Positions 17,257 to 43,423 of a DNA stretch of 64,000 nucleotides are shown piece by piece. The stretch is from contig OX387197.1 in NCBI GenBank assembly GCA_947561715.1, forward strand, positions 20,444,266 to 20,508,265, read 5' to 3'. Within the stretch, counting starts at the first letter, position 1. Each line of letters opens with the position of its first letter. The notes below the pieces were generated by a model. The model was not told where the DNA came from. It saw nothing but the letters and a program-made list of their open reading frames with translations, and ran no database searches. This DNA comes from Ascidia mentula. Taxonomy: Eukaryota; Chordata; Ascidiacea; Phlebobranchia; Ascidiidae. Made by a program: the position numbers and the translations under genes.

Positions 17257-17816
17257 AATTGAATCCAGGCAGTGTACATCCAGAGAATAGCAGTTAACAG
17301 TTTTGTACGGGCGTCTTATCAGAGTTCGTGTAAAGCTGCCTACGTGATAAAAAGCTGTTTTATCATGTCTCCGCAAAACAAATAAACACAGCGAAGTAAG
17401 TTGCACACGTACGATGTTTAAACCTTTATGCAAACACCAATTAAAAAAATTTGCAAAACTAAACTAAATACAAAACTTAAACAAATGTGCAAAATTTAAA
17501 ACAAATGGTCGATTTTTTTACGAGTCGGCATGTTGAGTCCGTGTTTACAATTATGTTTATTCAAGCGGAACTGATTTTAGCCCTCAATCTGCTCCTGCTG
17601 ACTTATGTTCGTGATGCATGTTACAGTGCGTTTTTATTCGACATATAACAAGGCCGTAAGTTGTAACGTGCTTCTTTAGTTTTGCATGTCGAAAATCGCT
17701 TTATCACTCATATAGCGTAAGTATTTAGAGTGTGCCACACACCCCTGGCAACGCTCTAGGTCCACTAAGGGATCCACAGATCCCCAGTTGAGAAACGGTT
17801 CCTCTAAAATACCATT

Positions 17817-18003
17817 GTAGGCATCGTAGGCATCGTAGGCATCGTAGGCATCGTAGGCATCGTAGGCATCGTAGGCATCGTAGGCATCGTAGGCATCGTA
17901 GGCATCGTAGGCATCGTAGGCATCGTAGGCATCGTAGGCATCGTAGGCATCGTAGGCATCGTAGGCATCGTAGGCATCGTAGGCATCGTAGGCATCGTAG
18001 GCA
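17817..18003. repeat. 9-bp minisatellite, about 20-21 perfect copies
   Basis: The unit GCATCGTAG is repeated head to tail without change for about 187 bp. Because the period is a multiple of three, both strands show long repetitive ORFs (Tyr-Asp-Ala or Met-Pro-Thr repeats). These are a by-product of the repeat, not evidence for a gene. Confidence 0.95.
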
Positions 18004-18215
18004 TTGAAGGCATTGAGTCTAGGCATCGTAGACATTGAGTCTAGCCATCGACTCAATGCCTATTATGCCTACAACACCTAGACTGAATGTCTACAATTCC
18101 TAAGATGCCTGGACTCAATGCGTACAATGCCTACGACACCTACAATGCCCTGTTTCAATGCCTAGACTCGATGCGTACAATACCAACACCCAATGCCTAC
18201 AATGCCTATCTGTTA
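18004..18215. repeat. Degenerate, strand-inverted continuation of the 9-bp minisatellite
   Basis: After the perfect array the copies become variable and, from about 18050, appear in reverse orientation (AATGCCTAC-like units, such as AATGCCTACAATGCCTA near 18190). The switch sits on a hairpin: CATTGAGTC at 18033-18041 and its complement GACTCAATG at 18050-18058, with an 8-nt loop. Confidence 0.8.
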
Positions 18216-20300: not shown

Positions 20301-22018
20301 TTAGTCGTCGTTGATTAAATCCACTTCTGTTCGGACGAAATCAAGGAGTGCGTCGTTTACTGCACGAGGTAACATAGCTCTGTAAATAAACAAAATGCCT
20401 GATTAGACTAAAACATATCATTACATATATAGTTACAAACACAAACATTGTTTGGGGCAGATGGTATACACACAACCAAATTTTTGAATAGCTGTTGTGC
20501 AAACTGGCTCCATGTTATCTATTTCACATAGTTGATAAACTGTTCAATTTTGCATTTCCCGTTTTCATTGTATAAAAATATTTACTCATGATAACTTACT
20601 TCATTAGTAGTGGCACACAACCCGAAGGCACTGTCACCAGAAATTCGTCCCGAAGCAGCGCCTGAACCGCTTGGTTGACCACAAACTCTGGTTCCAGAAT
20701 TGGCACATTTAGGTTTGCTCGAATATTTTTTAACAAGCCGGTTGTAACGAATGATGGGCAGATGCAAGTAAGTTTAACTCCACATATGTTCTGTCTGCGC
20801 AGCTCGTTACGCAAACCTTCCATGAGACCCACCACAGCATGCTTTGTCGAACTGGTAAAAAAGGTTCGTTTTATAACAGTTTTTTAAACTGTAACCTTTG
20901 TTTACATTCTGTGTTTTACTGTTGCAAAAAAAAAAAAATTATTGTCTGAAATAATAAAAGATTTTGCCCGACTAATTGTCATCGAAATATTAATGAAGGA
21001 TACTAAAGCCTTTTCAAATACGTATGACCGGGTGATAAGAGGTCAAATACCTGTAATCTGTCATATAAGCTGTTCCAAACAGTCCAGTATAAGATGCCAT
21101 GGCAATAATATGACCGTGATTTTTCGATTTCATGCTTGGCAAAAACTCTTTGATCAACTGCAAAATAATTTGCAGCATTTAAAATGTTTAACAAACATAT
21201 CTATCGTAATGTGCAAAAAAACGACTTACCCAGAAATGAGAAAGAATGTTAACTTCAAAGGTATTTGTTATCATTTTGTCAGTCAACGAGAGAATATCTG
21301 TTGGATAAATAACTCCTGCATTGTTGACAAGCATTGTGACGTCACCGACATCTTCCTGAATTTTTGCGGCAAATCTAAAATATATTTCGAAAGCAATCAA
21401 AAGGTAATGTCCGCATTCGAAAAGCAAACGAAGTTTCCATTCCATTAAATTCACATTGCTAAGTAGTGTTCTCCACTTACTTTCGAATTTCCATTTTATC
21501 TCTCAAGTCCACGGTGTACCCATACGCCTTAGCCCGCATTTGTTTAAGAATTGCCAATGTATCCGCATTTGTCGACTCATTGACGTCTACAGCCTAAATT
21601 TTGACATGTTTTTCGATAGGATATAATAATCCAACAACAAACCGATCTGTTGCTTCCCTGCATTCTTATAATGAGTGGTAACTTACTTAATTTTTTCACG
21701 ATTTCGTTTAAAAATGGTAAAACCGAGGTATTGGATTTTTTTCATTTGCACCGCGGCAGCTCGCTTACTATGATGGTAGCTCCGAGTTTTGCAAGTTTTA
21801 TGCAGTATAACTTCCCCATTCCATGTCCTGCTCCTGTAACAAGCGCTATCTCCCCATGTATGGACTTGGCTGCCGGTTTCCTGAACAACCTGTTGATAGA
21901 AACAAATAACTTCTGATACACGCTTGCTTACATGAAACGTAATTTGACATACACACCTGATGAACGACGTTACAAATCCCACAAAGACTTGCCATAACAA
22001 ATTTAGAACTTCACCCAT
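20301..22018 (-). CDS. Short-chain dehydrogenase/reductase, SDR16C (RDH10/HSD17B11)-like, copy 1
   Basis: NAD(P)-dependent oxidoreductase; relatives act on retinol or steroids at the ER or lipid-droplet membrane, but the substrate here is unknown. Seven exons (21957-22018, 21769-21889, 21481-21593, 21230-21374, 21051-21157, 20600-20851, 20301-20379) sum to 879 nt, 292 aa. Residues 5-23 are hydrophobic (LNLLWQVFVGFVTSFIRLF), a likely membrane anchor. The cofactor motif TGAGHGMG is at 39-46, NNAG at 116-119, catalytic Ser169 in MASYTGLFG, and Tyr182/Lys186 in YSSTK, so the active site is complete. The HFW before the fifth exon and the NHGHII motif fit SDR16C. The exon pattern is the same as in copy 2 (23906-25864). 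Which cofactor and substrate are used cannot be told from sequence alone. Confidence 0.9.
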
Positions 22019-22769
22019 GTTTTCGTTTGATTTTCAAAACTCTCACACTCTCAAAAAAGTTGTAACTGATAATAACGAATGATTTGCTTGGCAGTAAAAA
22101 AACCAATGCACAAGTTTAAAGATGTGTCGCAGATTTGGGTCTTGGTCCCTTGCAGTTGTGAAAAACATTTGCTCAAAGTCACTTATTAACTATCCGCTGA
22201 ACGGTGTTGACTATCAACCTAATGTAGGCCTATTGCTACTTTATTTTTCAACATGTTGCAGACTCATGTAATTGGTGCGTGCTGTAAAAACAAATATCGC
22301 TTCGGTTTCCATCGATACACCATGTTAAAACTGTTGTAAAATGTGTACAGCAACTGGCAAGGTGGTCTGTTCCGTGGCACGTTTAGTGTTTTGTTGGTTT
22401 GTAAAAATACCGCTCGATATTTTAACGTCCCAAAGACTTGAATATATATATGTTCGCGAAGCCCCAGGAAATCTTTCAAATTTACGACTTTATGACCTAA
22501 AACATTAAATATAACTTCAAACGCATCTTTACCTTTTTTCGGTTTCGGATGTGCTTACCCCTACTCAAACTTGTGGCATTTCATTTACTCAAATATTGTA
22601 CCAACAATTTTTTAACAATACTGATCCATGCTTGAAGATTCATAGACAATCTAATCGCACGACTTCCAACCGAAACACTCTTCTTCTTCTTTTATTCAAC
22701 CTGCAAAAGTTTCATTTCCACTGGGGTAAACCATTCACCCAGTTATAAAACATCACTAAAGGTCATAGT
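22019..22769. other. Spacer upstream of SDR copy 1
   Basis: No gene is recognised. This stretch should contain the promoter of SDR copy 1. The short ORFs on both strands lack any family resemblance. Confidence 0.4.
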
Positions 22770-23272
22770 CAAAGCCAGTGTTGGGTGAATAACCCCTGCA
22801 TTGTTGAAAAGCACTGTGAAGTCGCCTACATCTTCGCGAAATTGGAAAGCTAACCTGGCAAATAATTAGAACTTCTGGTTTAAAACGTATTTTATTTAAC
22901 CAAACAAAGTTGCAAATTAACTAAATTGTTTACAAAACGTATTGATTAAACGTACAATGTTTGTTGGATTTTTAACATCTTTTCGTTTGTTATTTATGAA
23001 TAACCCGTACACCCTTTATATCTACCAACTTGCACAGTTTTTCGTTGCCTGAAGCATTGACGTCTTCAACAGCCTAAATTTTGAAAAAACTTTTTCGTGT
23101 ATAATTGATGCTGAACCTAATCGCGATTATTGTAACAGTTTTACTATAGTTGTCGCTCCAAGTTCAGCAAACATTGCAAAGAAGAGTTGCCCAAAACTAT
23201 GACCGGCAACTGTAATCAGGGCAAATTCTCCGCGTATAGGTTTGGATTTGCAAAACATCCTAAATTGTTCCG
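22770..23272 (-). pseudogene. Decayed SDR copy (exons 2-4 only)
   Basis: Three blocks match SDR copies 1 and 2 in the right order. The exon-2 block (about 23140-23262) keeps GATTIV and KSKPIRGEFALI but the cofactor loop TGAGHGMG has become TVAGHSFG. The exon-3 block (about 23000-23076) reads AVEDVNASGNEK. The exon-4 block (about 22775-22853) reads REDVGDFTVLFNNAGVIHPT. The catalytic-Tyr exon and the two last exons are missing, so no active enzyme can be made. Confidence 0.8.
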
Positions 23273-23905
23273 AGATGTAAAGGTTGTTTCCAATTGCTGA
23301 CAGCAGAGTATGCTAGATACTCACTGAACAAATGAATTTGCAAAAGCTGTATTACTTTTCACAGCAATATAAACACTTTATTCTGCACTGTTTCAAAGTT
23401 TGCCCGTTACTGTCTGCAGGAACCTGCCGGTCTGCAACGAAATCCGCACTTTTACTGCAAAATAGTTTATATGAAACAGAGTTCTGTGACAACGCAGTGA
23501 ATGCGGTGCAATAATTTATTAACTTGCCTCAGATCCAACTATTCTCAGTAAAATTTTTGATATCCTAGTATTGGACCAACTTTCACATACTTTCCGAGTT
23601 TCTGCTGAGAATAAATAAAAAAAAAATGAGTTTCTGTCACTGAAATTTTCTCTTCGCCGAAATGTTGCAGTGTCAAGTTTTAGGTTACAATAGAATCTGC
23701 AGAAATGTCCTAAATATTTGTACTTAGAGAAGTAAAGAAAATGTGTTGGGTATTCCACTGGGCAGCGAAAATGCAGCTGACTTACAAAACGTCCCTCTTA
23801 AATACAATGTATTGTATCGCTTGACAATGTACAGCAATATAGCAATGTCTTTTCTAAAAACAGATAGCGATCCAAAATATTTAGTGTAATGGAAATATGC
23901 ACACT
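23273..23905. other. Spacer between SDR remnant and SDR copy 2
   Basis: AT-rich, with no supported gene. The 79-codon minus-strand ORF at 23519-23758 has no resemblance to the SDR family and is probably chance. Confidence 0.4.
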
Positions 23906-25864
23906 TTATTCGTTTTTGGTGTCGATCAAATCCACTTTTGCTTCAACATAATCGTTTACCGCGTCCACCACGCTCTCAGGTAACATATCACTGCAAAGAT
24001 GTACAAATGATAAAAGTTTGCGTAAGTCTCGGAAAACGTCATGCTGCGTTGATTTTGGAAAAACAATTGTACGACTACTGTGACGTTTTTAGAAATACGT
24101 TAATAGAATTACTTTAAAAACAAACAGGATTTACTTTAAAAAAATTTGTTTGTGCGAGCTTGAAGCAGCTTACTTTAATATGCGGGGTAGGGTTACTGAC
24201 GGCACGGTCACCAGAAATTCGTCTCGAAGAAGCGCCTGGACCGCTCGGTTGACCACAAACTCCGGTTCCAGATTTGGCACATGGAGATTTGCTCGAGGGT
24301 TGTTGACGAAGCCGGTTGTAACGAATGATGGGCAGATGCAAGTAAGTTTAACTCCGTATATTTTCTGTCTGCGCAGCTCGTTGCGCAGAGCCTCCATAAG
24401 ACCAACTACAGCATGCTTTGTAGAACTGGCAGAAAACAGTGGTATAGTCGTTATTTACAAGTCGATGTTTGGCAACGTTGACAAACTTTGTTGGGTTTCA
24501 ACTCGGGTGACTTTTCAGGTTAATCAAGAATCTTGGTGTGTATTTTCCAAAAAATGTCCTGTTTTTATGGCAATTTAACATTTGCGTAAATTTTGTTGAA
24601 AAACACCCTGCCTCCGACTGGAAACACCGGTGTATAAACGAAATTTCCTAAATAACTAATGTCAAAATGATTTAAACTAAACATTGGCAAGTATATCACA
24701 TGATAAAATCAATTTTTAAGCAGCTAAATTGCAGCAAAAGATAAAAAAAAACATTTTCAATTTTATTTTTTCCGCTGTGAAATCAATTTTCACAGTATAT
24801 GCAATTACGGACATCAATATACTATTAACTGCTCGTAAATTGTGAACCAAATGATATCTCTATCACGTACCTGTAATCTGTCATATAAGCTGTTCCAAAC
24901 AGTCCAGCAAAAGATGCCATGGCAATAATATGACCGTGATTCTTCGCTTTCATGCTTGGCAAAAACTCTTTGATCAACTGGAAACATATGATTTAAACGT
25001 TAAATCATAATCTTGTTTTATTAAAGCATGCTTGAAGGAGATGGCTTACCCAGAAATGGGAAAGAACATTCACTTTAAATGTGTTTGTTATCATGTTTTC
25101 GGTCAGCGACAGAATGTCAGTGGGATAAATAACTCCTGCATTGTTGACAAGCATTGTGACGTCACCCACATTTTCTCGAATTTTGGTGGCAAGTCTAAAC
25201 AACCGTTGTATGTTATTCTTTAAGAATTTCCTTTTTCCAGGTGCATTCCTGTGCGTTTGTAGTTTCTTCATAGGTGCCTGTTTCAACCTACTTGTGAATT
25301 GCACTTTTTTCTCGTAGGTCCACGGTGTAACCATACGCTTTTGCACCTTTTTGTTTGAGAATTGCCACGGTCTCAGCATTTGTAGTTTCGTTGACGTCTA
25401 CCGCCTGTTGTTTTTTTCGGTGTGAGTGTTGTAAAATGAATGAAAAACAGAAATAAGAAGAAGAATTTTATTCAAGACAAGTCTGCGAAGGGAATGGCAA
25501 AATTATGCTAATGTTTAACCCCCAAAAGCCCACCTTTTCTTTGAACATATACCACTACATTCTTACATTTATATTTGCATTTTTTACCAAATTGCAAAGT
25601 TCGAAAGTGAGGGTTCATTGCGAACACTTACTATAATCGTGGCGCCGAGTTTTGCAAGCTTTATGCAGTATAACTTCCCCATTCCATGTCCCGCTCCTGT
25701 AACAAGTACTATCTCCCCATGTATAGACTTGGGCGCTGGTTTCCATATCAACCTGCGGTTACAAATATCTGAATAACCTAGTGCAAGCTTTACACAACTT
25801 ACCGAAAAATTGCAATTACGATTCCAACGAACAATTTCCAAAACAATTTGATCAGTCCGCTCAT
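23906..25864 (-). CDS. Short-chain dehydrogenase/reductase, SDR16C-like, copy 2
   Basis: Tandem paralogue of the gene at 20301-22018. Seven exons (25803-25864, 25632-25752, 25292-25404, 25050-25194, 24871-24977, 24174-24425, 23906-23990) have lengths 62, 121, 113, 145, 107, 252 and 85. The first six are identical in length to those of copy 1, and the total is 294 aa. It starts MSGLIKLFWKLFVGIVIAIFR, an N-terminal hydrophobic anchor. TGAGHGMG, NNAGVIYP, the ASFAGLFGTAY-type Ser region and the Y-x-x-x-K exon border are kept, so it should be active. Its C-terminus is two residues longer (VDLIDTKNE against VDLINDD). The exon encoding LIKEFLPSMK...GLFGTAYMTDY differs from copy 1 at only a few bases, which suggests recent duplication or gene conversion. 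Confidence 0.9.
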
Positions 25865-37765: not shown

Positions 37766-40700
37766 TTAAGAAAAGTCGTCCTCCTCAACTGGTTTGTTCA
37801 TCCATTTTCCACAGCCGGCTTGAGCAAAAGCTAACTTCATTGCATTCTTCGCCTGCTGATATTCAACTGAAGCTTTTTTAGCCAAGGCATAAGTTTCCAG
37901 ATCATTGCTTTTGGTGACCTTGATCATAAACAGAAAGTAGGATAGGGACATGCAGTACATGATGTTTTTATACATACCTGTTTATAGCATTTGAAAAGAT
38001 TGGACTTGCACACATGAGAAATGGGATCTGAGCATCCATAACGTGCCTCACATCTTCCCTTCGTGCCATCCAAAACCTCAGCACCCACATCACCAGTAGT
38101 CCAGTTCAAACTAAACTCTCTCGTTTTTACCTTGCCCGTGTCCCTGCCGGGGTCGTCACCGCTGATTTTGCTTACCTTGTAACCACAAAACATTTGTTTC
38201 TCAACAATTTTCCTAGCTAGGCAAACTTACAGAAGGGTGTTGAGCATTAAACGGGGAAGTGTTCAAGCCGCCCATGTCCTGCAAATATTTGTCTAGTCGA
38301 CAGCATATCGCCCTTGTCAGATGACCGTGATGAAAAAGCATTCCCAGTGTAAGCGATGACATGTAAATAGGCTCGATCACCCGACTGAGCAAAGCTCCCT
38401 AAAAATGCAACGCCCATCAAACACTTAAACCATACTACAGAAAATTTAGCACGAGGCTTTTACAAAACAATTTTGAGGCTTGAACGTACTTGGAGACCTA
38501 AATAATTCCATTTGGCCAGTTTGTCGCTGCACGACATTGTCCTCAGTCGTTCTCCTCGCAACAAGCCATCCCATGTCGGAACGTTGGCATCTTCGTCAAT
38601 AGGAATGCATCCTTCACCTAAAATCAATGACAAAACAATTCTGCCTGACATGTTTTCTGAACAGTTTTTTCTATTGTACACGTCAAAATGTTAGGTAGAG
38701 CGCACCGTTTTCAACTTTGGTCCTCAGAACCCCCTGTTTCTTGTTGTCAAACAACGGCTTGTGGACATTTTCCGCTCCTTCCTCGTAATGTTCAATGTCG
38801 CTTTTTGCAAACAGCGCACTGTCTCCACATGGAGCCGTACTGATGTACAAATGAAAACGAATACCCGGTTTCAGACGTAGCCTGGAGTAGAGTGTACAAC
38901 GTCACATATGTGAAAAACATGACATTTTTGGCGACAAAGAAGCACTTAAACTTCACTATGTATTTTATCGTCATACAAAACTGGCATTTGTGAATTTTTC
39001 TAAAATTTCAAATTGTTTTAAATTGGCAACTGAATGTCGTGAAGTCCGAATTTGCCCTGTTGTTTTAGATCATATATGCGTGACAGCGTCAGTAACGGAT
39101 TATTGCGTCGTCGGTATAAACCTTCATTTATTTTGGTCGGCTAAAAACGGAAAGTCGCCAAAGAGTATTTGTGACATTAGTTTTGTTTACCGAAATCTGA
39201 AACCTACTTGTTGTTTTGTCCAGGTTCAAAAATGTTGTCCTCGGAGTCTTGGCCTGCAGGGTAGTGGAGCAGTTGACTGACAAGATACATAAATTTGTCG
39301 TTTACTTACACACGCAATTTTTTTGTTGAACTAACCTGTATAGATATCGCATTAGACCTCTGCGTGAAATAACTTCTGCGTGGCAATCGTTCACCGTTTC
39401 ACCTTTTAGGCTTAACTTATCTCCTGCAACGCATCGATTTCCTAAAAAAGAAGGAGCAAAGTTTAACTCTACAGCAGCGGTAATATAACACATACAGATC
39501 TTTCACTAGCCATACAACCTTAAACGTTTTAGAAAAGATTTACGACAAAAATGTTGACACTAAGTCATGGTTAGAACAGGTTTAATGATAACAACAAATG
39601 TTACCAGCAAAAACGAACAGTGCATGTTTTCGAATGTGTCAAATGAAACCTTATGCTTCGATTTTTGATAACTTAGTTTAGTCAAATCGACAACAATTTA
39701 TGTTGGTTTTAAACTGCGTTGTTCTACTTTGTTTTAGCGATACTGAAGCATAGGAGAAATTTGTACAATAATTGAAAACCTTTTTACAGGACTTTTTACA
39801 GAAGTCAAGGCAATTTGTGCGCAAAAAGGAAACGAGCTAATGTCATTGAATTCTAATTAAACCAAGGCTTTCAGGAGCATGTTTCATTGTTTAAGTGACA
39901 GGACTGTTTCACGAATGGAAAAATCACCATATAAAATCAAAACTAACCCGACGAGACACTGATGACTGTCCACCTACGCTCTTCTCCCCATCCTTCATCG
40001 GTAGTTTGTGACATGACAAATCCTGCAATAATTTTTCGACCAACAATCGTATCAGGCAGCTTTGATAGTAGCTCTTCAAACTTTTCTTTCACCATGCTGG
40101 CCACGCGGTCGTGGTAGGTAAATGATTGTGCGTTGAAGGACGCCTACCACAGAATTGACAATTAAACGAACACTTTCGGATGGCAAAACAAAAACACTAA
40201 ATCATGTTAAAAAAATTATTACTGAAACGGCAAATACAATGTGAATATTCTACACAATTTCAACAAATAGATTTGCAAAATTTTCTTACTCCTGGAGTTC
40301 CTGGTGCAGCAACATGTTTCAACTTGCCTTCCTTGTCCAGCAAGTGTAAGGCAGCTTCTGCAGCTTTTAATTTGGATTCCTTTTTTGTAGAACCATCAAC
40401 TTTTGCGACAACCCGACCACCCAAAGTGAGAATAGATGTAAACCTAAAAAAATGAACAAATGTATGTTTTGCTTTGACATGTTAAAAAAATATTGCAATG
40501 TTTTAAGGTTGCATTGACACTTTAAAAAATTAAATTTGTTTTATTATTTCAATTCTGTTGTATTTATAATAAAAATACTTGTTTAAGTTTCTATACTGAA
40601 AGGATGTGTGAGTTTAGCATTAAAAAAAGATCCAAAATTACCTTCGTTTGTGATCAGGTCCATGAATATTGCAGTCGAAGTTAATTAACATTTTGTTTGC

Positions 40701-43423
40701 CTGTGCATACTCATTTATTGCAGAAACCGCATTTTTGGATGAAGAAAAAAAGGTAGGTTTAAAACTGCATTCAACCTTAATACAAAACAACAATAAAAAG
40801 GAAATATTAAAATTAAAAATCCTTTACTTGCTGCTCAGGTGTAACACATTGTATTGCTTCAGCAGGAAGAAGTAACTTTAAAACAACTTGAGCAGCCTGC
40901 AGCTTTGAGTCTTTCTTTGAAATACCTTCTACTGGTTGGTAGGTTTCAGTTCCAAGCACAACAGATGTGAAAAACCTTGACGATATGTCATTTTAAAAAA
41001 GTGCACAAAATCCTCATTCATTGCACAATTAAAAAAAATTAAGAAACACACGTTTTCTGGTGTGGAGGTCCTTCATCAGAGACTTTGTACATAAGATTAA
41101 GTTTATTAGCTTGAGCATATTCATTTAACATTGACACAGGATTTTTTCCACTGTGTTCCTGTATTCCTGAGGATAATAGAAGGGAGTTGGCTGTCTCTCT
41201 ACATAAACTGTTTTCAACTGGACAAGAAAAAAAAGACAGAAGTAACAACTGCAAATATAACTAATTTTAAAGCCATACTTTCATTTTTCACAGGGCCAAG
41301 ATCATTGGGAACTGTGGGCGGGGAAGATGTTGTGGGATATGGCTGGGTATGGCCATATTCAGCAGGATAGTAAGCGACTTGGGGTTCTGGTTTTGGTACA
41401 AACTGGTCATTGCTGGTATCCCCACTCAATGTGAAGAAAGAGGGTGGCAATAAAACTTTATCTGATGTGCTTTTGTCAGGACTGTAGGATTTTGTGTCAT
41501 CATTTCCGAATGTGCTCTTTACAGATGTATTGTAAATTTGTGAAGAATTATTTGGAGTAGAATTTAATGAAGAAACAGTTTCTGTAATTTGTGCAGCTAT
41601 AGGTCCACCATAAGACCTGTACCTATCCTTCCCATTCGGAAGCAAATACCACTTTGGGGGATTGCTGTCAGTTCTAGTAATTAAATGCTGCTTTTTCATC
41701 TCATACAAAATCTAAAACCAAAATTTAGCATCTGATAATAGCAATTAAAACATAATAAAATTTAAAGAGAAATTACTTTATTAAGAGATTTTTTGTCCAT
41801 TGACATCATTTTTGTCAGCTTTGATATCTGAACCTCATCTTCTTTACACTCATGTAGTTTACAAAGAATTTCAATGTGGGTTGCATCACCTGTTAAAAAA
41901 TAATAATTTTAACACAAAAATATTTTCCAATAACATCTATTTTACAAAAAATGGCACAACCTACCAGAGTGCTGACTTTTGGTTGCCTGTCGTTGTGAGT
42001 TCCTGTGCCTGTTTGCAACCCAGTGAGGACCTCTTGTGGACCGCTCAGTCCTGTAATTTCTTTTCATTTTTTGCCACAATTACCTTTCAACAGTTATCAC
42101 TGTTTAAAAGTTGATGCAGCTTTCATAATTGAAGAATACTGACAAGCATATCAATGAATATAAAAAAATGAAACAAGATGGACTCTATATATTACATATG
42201 TTACTTCCAAGCAAAATATACACTCTAATAGGAATCTTTTGTTTTTCAAAAAACTAATTCTTTCTCATTTGTACAGATAAATGCCATTCATGTAACAAAA
42301 TTCATGCAAGTACCGCATTCCGGCAAAAAACAACAACACCTGGTGTGTCCCATTAGTAAAATTATTCATACATTAAAAAAAAATATTCCAGTGTTCATAG
42401 ACTGTGGTTACTTGTTTCAGCGTGATTTTTTACTTTTATCAAGCGCTAACACACATTAGCAAGTGCAATCTCAGTTTATAAAACACCTGACACACAACAG
42501 AAGTTTTTTTATTCAATTCAGACCAAAGGCAAAAAAATCTTCAACGCTTTCTGTTCTGTCGGTACTTTTGAGTGACCGTAATGTTCTATCCACAAGTTTA
42601 TGTGAAGAAGACAAGCCTAAATTTAGCTAAACTCACAAGTGTAACACAGTGCATACAATAGAGTAGTGAACATTCTTAAAAATATTTCTTCGTTGTTACA
42701 AAACTACAAAACTTGATTTTCCACAACGGAACCAGGTTCTTGATTTCGGTAAATCCCCATCGTCGAGATTTTGATCACAGATCACCACGTTCTAAAGTTT
42801 GTGAACGGCATCTTGTTGTAAATCGTTTTCCATTTTCAGACTTCAAATACTTCTTTACAATAATCTATGTTGGTTACAGAGTGAATTTTTTATGGTTTGG
42901 GCAGTAATACACAATACACATATCATCGATCAATTTTATTACTTGTTAGCTAAGGTTTCAGGAAAGTCATCATCAAAATAATTTGGTGTTATCATGTGTG
43001 GTAGTTTATTAGCTGATATTTGTTTCAAAACTTGGTTTGTGTTTTCACTATCACTGTGTTCCTCTATATGGTTGGTGAAAGAATTATCGATGGCCTGATA
43101 CGTTTGTTCCGACAAAGCAAGTTTTTGATCGTTTGTACGAAGGGCCAATTTTGGCTCTTGTTTGTGGTCATTTGTAACAATTAAGCTCCATTCTGGGGGA
43201 TTCGTTGAAGTTTTTTTCACCAGGCTTCTCTTTTCCATGTCGTACAATACCTACAAAAGTAGGAATCAAATCAATGGTCGTTGATTCTTGGGTAATGCTG
43301 CAATTTACTTACGCGGTTAACTGCCTTCTTGGGGATGTTTAACTCTTTAACCAAATCACGAGCAAACCAAGGTTTCGTTTTCAGAAATGCTGTAATACGT
43401 TCTTCCAATGTTTTGTCATCCAT
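37766..43423 (-). CDS. ADAR: dsRNA adenosine deaminase with two Z domains (ADAR1-type)
   Basis: Converts adenosine to inosine in double-stranded RNA. Order: first Z domain, residues about 5-60 (43313-43423 plus the start of 42943-43250), with recognition set KKAVNRVLY then NPPEW; an acidic linker; a small basic exon (41965-42050); a second Z domain (41777-41890 plus the start of 41279-41711) with KKSLNKILY and NPPKW; a Ser/Pro linker; two dsRNA-binding domains, [19 protein letters not shown] (about 41053-41217, completed about 40880-40980) and [14 protein letters not shown] (about 40640-40750, completed 40290-40443); and the deaminase domain. The catalytic HAE lies in [16 protein letters not shown] (39341-39440), the first zinc Cys in [11 protein letters not shown] (about 38800-38875), the second in [15 protein letters not shown] (38494-38620). 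The end is [11 protein letters not shown]. Exon phases through both Z domains fit. The start ATG is at 43421-43423. Confidence 0.95.

Follow-up and report, generated by a model that had tools for sequence, protein, structure and literature searches.

The 64-kb stretch of Ascidia mentula DNA analyzed here (the window; contig OX387197.1, positions 20,444,266 to 20,508,265) carries on its minus strand a locus with an adenosine deaminase domain, double-stranded RNA-binding domains (dsRBDs) and two Z-alpha-type modules. Its exon limits were set by reading frame and splice signals (Table 1), and the Pfam scan covered 873 of the 948 residues of the ADAR model. The zinc and catalytic residues (HAE, PCG and SCS) are present in the translated exons as DCHAEV, APCGD and MSCSDK. 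A 322-residue part of the deaminase scored 336.6 bits against human ADAR1, as compared with 251.2 bits against ADAR2, and the domain has ADAR1-type rather than ADAR2-type residues at 375/376 (Asn-Arg) and at 455 (Ala). The chain of exons E3 to E17, as traced by the reading frame and splice signals, unites at least one dsRBD, one Z domain and the deaminase in one gene. The locus is a tunicate ADAR1 gene, predicted to encode an RNA-editing enzyme.

Table 1. Features of the ADAR1 locus, in window coordinates.
Feature	Coordinates	Strand	Evidence
Open reading frame (ORF) stretch	43313..43423	-	ORF and donor CGC/GTAAGT
ORF stretch	42939..43250	-	ORF; Pfam z-alpha, 45.2 bits across the exon pair
Overlapping candidate donor CAA/GTAATA (42942) and AATAAA (42940-42935)	42935..42942	-	Donor, 3.3 bits
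In-frame internal ATG (42067) in A-rich context, and candidate exon start 42050 after ACAG	42050..42067	-	
Candidate exon from 42050	41965..42050	-	E3-E4 intron, 16.3 bits
Stretch with Pfam z-alpha match	41777..41889	-	Exon limits by reading frame and splice signals
Stretch of second Z module	41279..41711	-	Pfam z-alpha, 34.4 bits across the exon pair
Two dsRNA-binding domains (exons 6-9)	40290..41217	-	PF00035, two stretches, 88.3 bits
Exons 10-17, ADAR1-type adenosine deaminase domain up to the stop codon	37766..40143	-	PF02137, 268.9 bits

Both Z modules, each interrupted by an intron, exceeded the curated Pfam z-alpha cut-off of 21. The Asn-Leu-Tyr-Trp tetrad is found in both (NRVLYDM...W and NKILYEM...W), with a Met-Trp gap of 15 residues that agrees with the motif Nx(2)LYx[LM]x(8,20)W; tetrad and motif are as defined in PMC11293857. 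The Tyr-to-Trp spacing is 18 in both modules, as in human Z-alpha, and the signature of human Z-beta (Ile at the place of Tyr177 and Ala at that of Arg174) was found in neither. Both modules look capable of holding left-handed (Z-form) RNA or DNA. The sequence-only reading had described two Z-alpha-type modules at a non-vertebrate ADAR1 locus, both retaining the Tyr that human Z-beta lacks, and this was borne out. Its further statement, that Z-beta lacks binding, is correct as regards Z-form nucleic acid, but binding of G-quadruplexes by human Z-beta is reported in PMC13136903.

The two-Z arrangement of ADAR1 has precedents in fish and in certain invertebrates. Teleost ADAR1 likewise carries two Z-alpha domains at its N-terminus, but is stated to be a single protein (PMC9881149), whereas the join at the present locus is a candidate only. 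Up to three Z-alpha domains are described in single ADARs (PMC11293857). More than one Z domain per gene is also seen in the ADAR1-like genes of sea urchin and Amphimedon (three each) and of Oscarella and Nematostella (two each), a set of genes distinguished by one to three dsRBDs; in the same paper, the main text of which mentions no tunicate, Grice and Degnan regard a single Z domain as the most parsimonious ancestor (PMC4323055). The sequence-only reading had suggested that two functional Z domains may be the ancestral state, preceding a loss of function in Z-beta. Vertebrate ADAR1 (p150/p110) shares with our locus the order of Z module, Z module, dsRBDs and ADAR1-type deaminase, as well as a possible internal start ahead of the second Z. 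The likeness to vaccinia E3 Z-alpha (PDB 1oyi), a viral protein and no editing enzyme, is confined to the domain. Among the papers listed, no publication on tunicate ADAR1 Z domains was recognized by title or start of abstract; of PMC9989829, the running text was covered.

One possible explanation for the arrangement is that a single locus could yield a Z-headed editing enzyme and, as a distinct product, a small protein with Z-alpha only. The choice would fall where donor, stop codon and poly(A) signal overlap; this could tune Z-RNA sensing through a built-in decoy, although we consider it unlikely. In favor of a join of the two Z modules, an in-frame join exists, multi-Z ADAR1 is already known, and a phase-2 donor starting with GTAA, if retained, always reads as a stop. 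An alternative route, from a donor at 43048 to the strong E4 acceptor, likewise keeps the frame, but 82% of 4000 random tails also offered, by chance alone, a donor as good. Splicing was scored with matrices built from exons placed by reading frame. The first set (29 donors and 27 acceptors scored, the tested intron among them but outside training, with one of 30 donors dropped as misplaced) underlies the random placements, the donor/acceptor pair scores and the scores for the alternative route; a revised set (31 donors and 28 acceptors) was used to rank the introns. Against a join, the candidate joining intron has, among the 16 introns of the model, the weakest splice score (3.1 bits, the next being 6.5) and is the longest (892 nt, the next being 506). 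The best in-phase donor/acceptor pair present scored 5.0 bits, and a pair of at least that score was obtained in 81% of 3000 random placements, counted without a stop filter; since random placements often yield such a pair, the existence of an in-frame join does not by itself count as evidence. The GU score discussed below was picked post hoc, after inspection of the sequence. The first AATAAA past the ADAR stop lies 631 nt on, and of three FABP-like gene ends, one has AATAAA overlapping the stop, another has it 88 nt on, and the third lacks it within 200 nt.

An alternative hypothesis, which we regard as a real possibility though short of an even chance, is that two adjacent genes are present: a Z-only gene ending past the AATAAA near 42,940, with a product of 140 residues (Z-alpha and a tail), and a one-Z ADAR1 starting at ATG 42067. 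The Z module would then derive by a split from a multi-Z ancestor of this ADAR1, and its present role may be that of a free Z-RNA binder. Weak donor and acceptor, together with the AATAAA and a GU-rich stretch 15-26 nt past it (42920-42909), argue against the join; the downstream GU score was matched by 3 of the 149 AATAAA in the window, that one counted. The ATG sits 17 nt ahead of the candidate exon start, with an in-frame stop five codons upstream of it, and an in-frame ATG within ten codons occurred in 14.5% of chance trials. Against two genes, a gene split is required, whereas several Z domains per ADAR1 are a known pattern, and frame and donor permit the join. Placing both Z modules in one transcript by an in-frame join is possible but no better than chance, and the DNA alone does not establish both Z domains in one protein. 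The sequence-only reading, which proposed that the animal may have a two-headed Z-RNA sensor-editor, is confirmed in part as an observation and supported in part as an interpretation.

Two protein searches and a laxer family search of the genome matched, as regards Z genes, exons of the ADAR1 locus only, and the stretch 43313..43423 was the sole matching copy genome-wide in the protein search. A stricter family search of the genome (E 0.001) gave zero matches, missing the ADAR1 locus itself because introns split the Z domain. Neither family search gave a match above cut-off in 14 control genomes, so that the absence of further Z genes is weak evidence. The genome contains two further deaminase loci (L011/L013/L016 and L012/L017/L019/L021/L023), one with motifs that we take to be ADAT1-like and one ADAR2-like; no ADAD was recognized among the 14 matches obtained.

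Mitochondrial COX1 (contig C79, 19,461 bases) has 16 AGA/AGG codons, 13 of them at Gly in an alignment to mammalian COX1. AGR encodes Gly in the ascidian mitochondrial code (table 13), and these codons therefore show the animal to be a tunicate. Elsewhere in the window, a tandem repeat at 17679-18059 leaves several frames open (AYDAYD... on the minus strand). Two near-alike gene stretches at 20599-25397 on the minus strand, presumably short-chain-dehydrogenase-like, have common peptide runs, as read by eye, and probably represent a tandem duplication.
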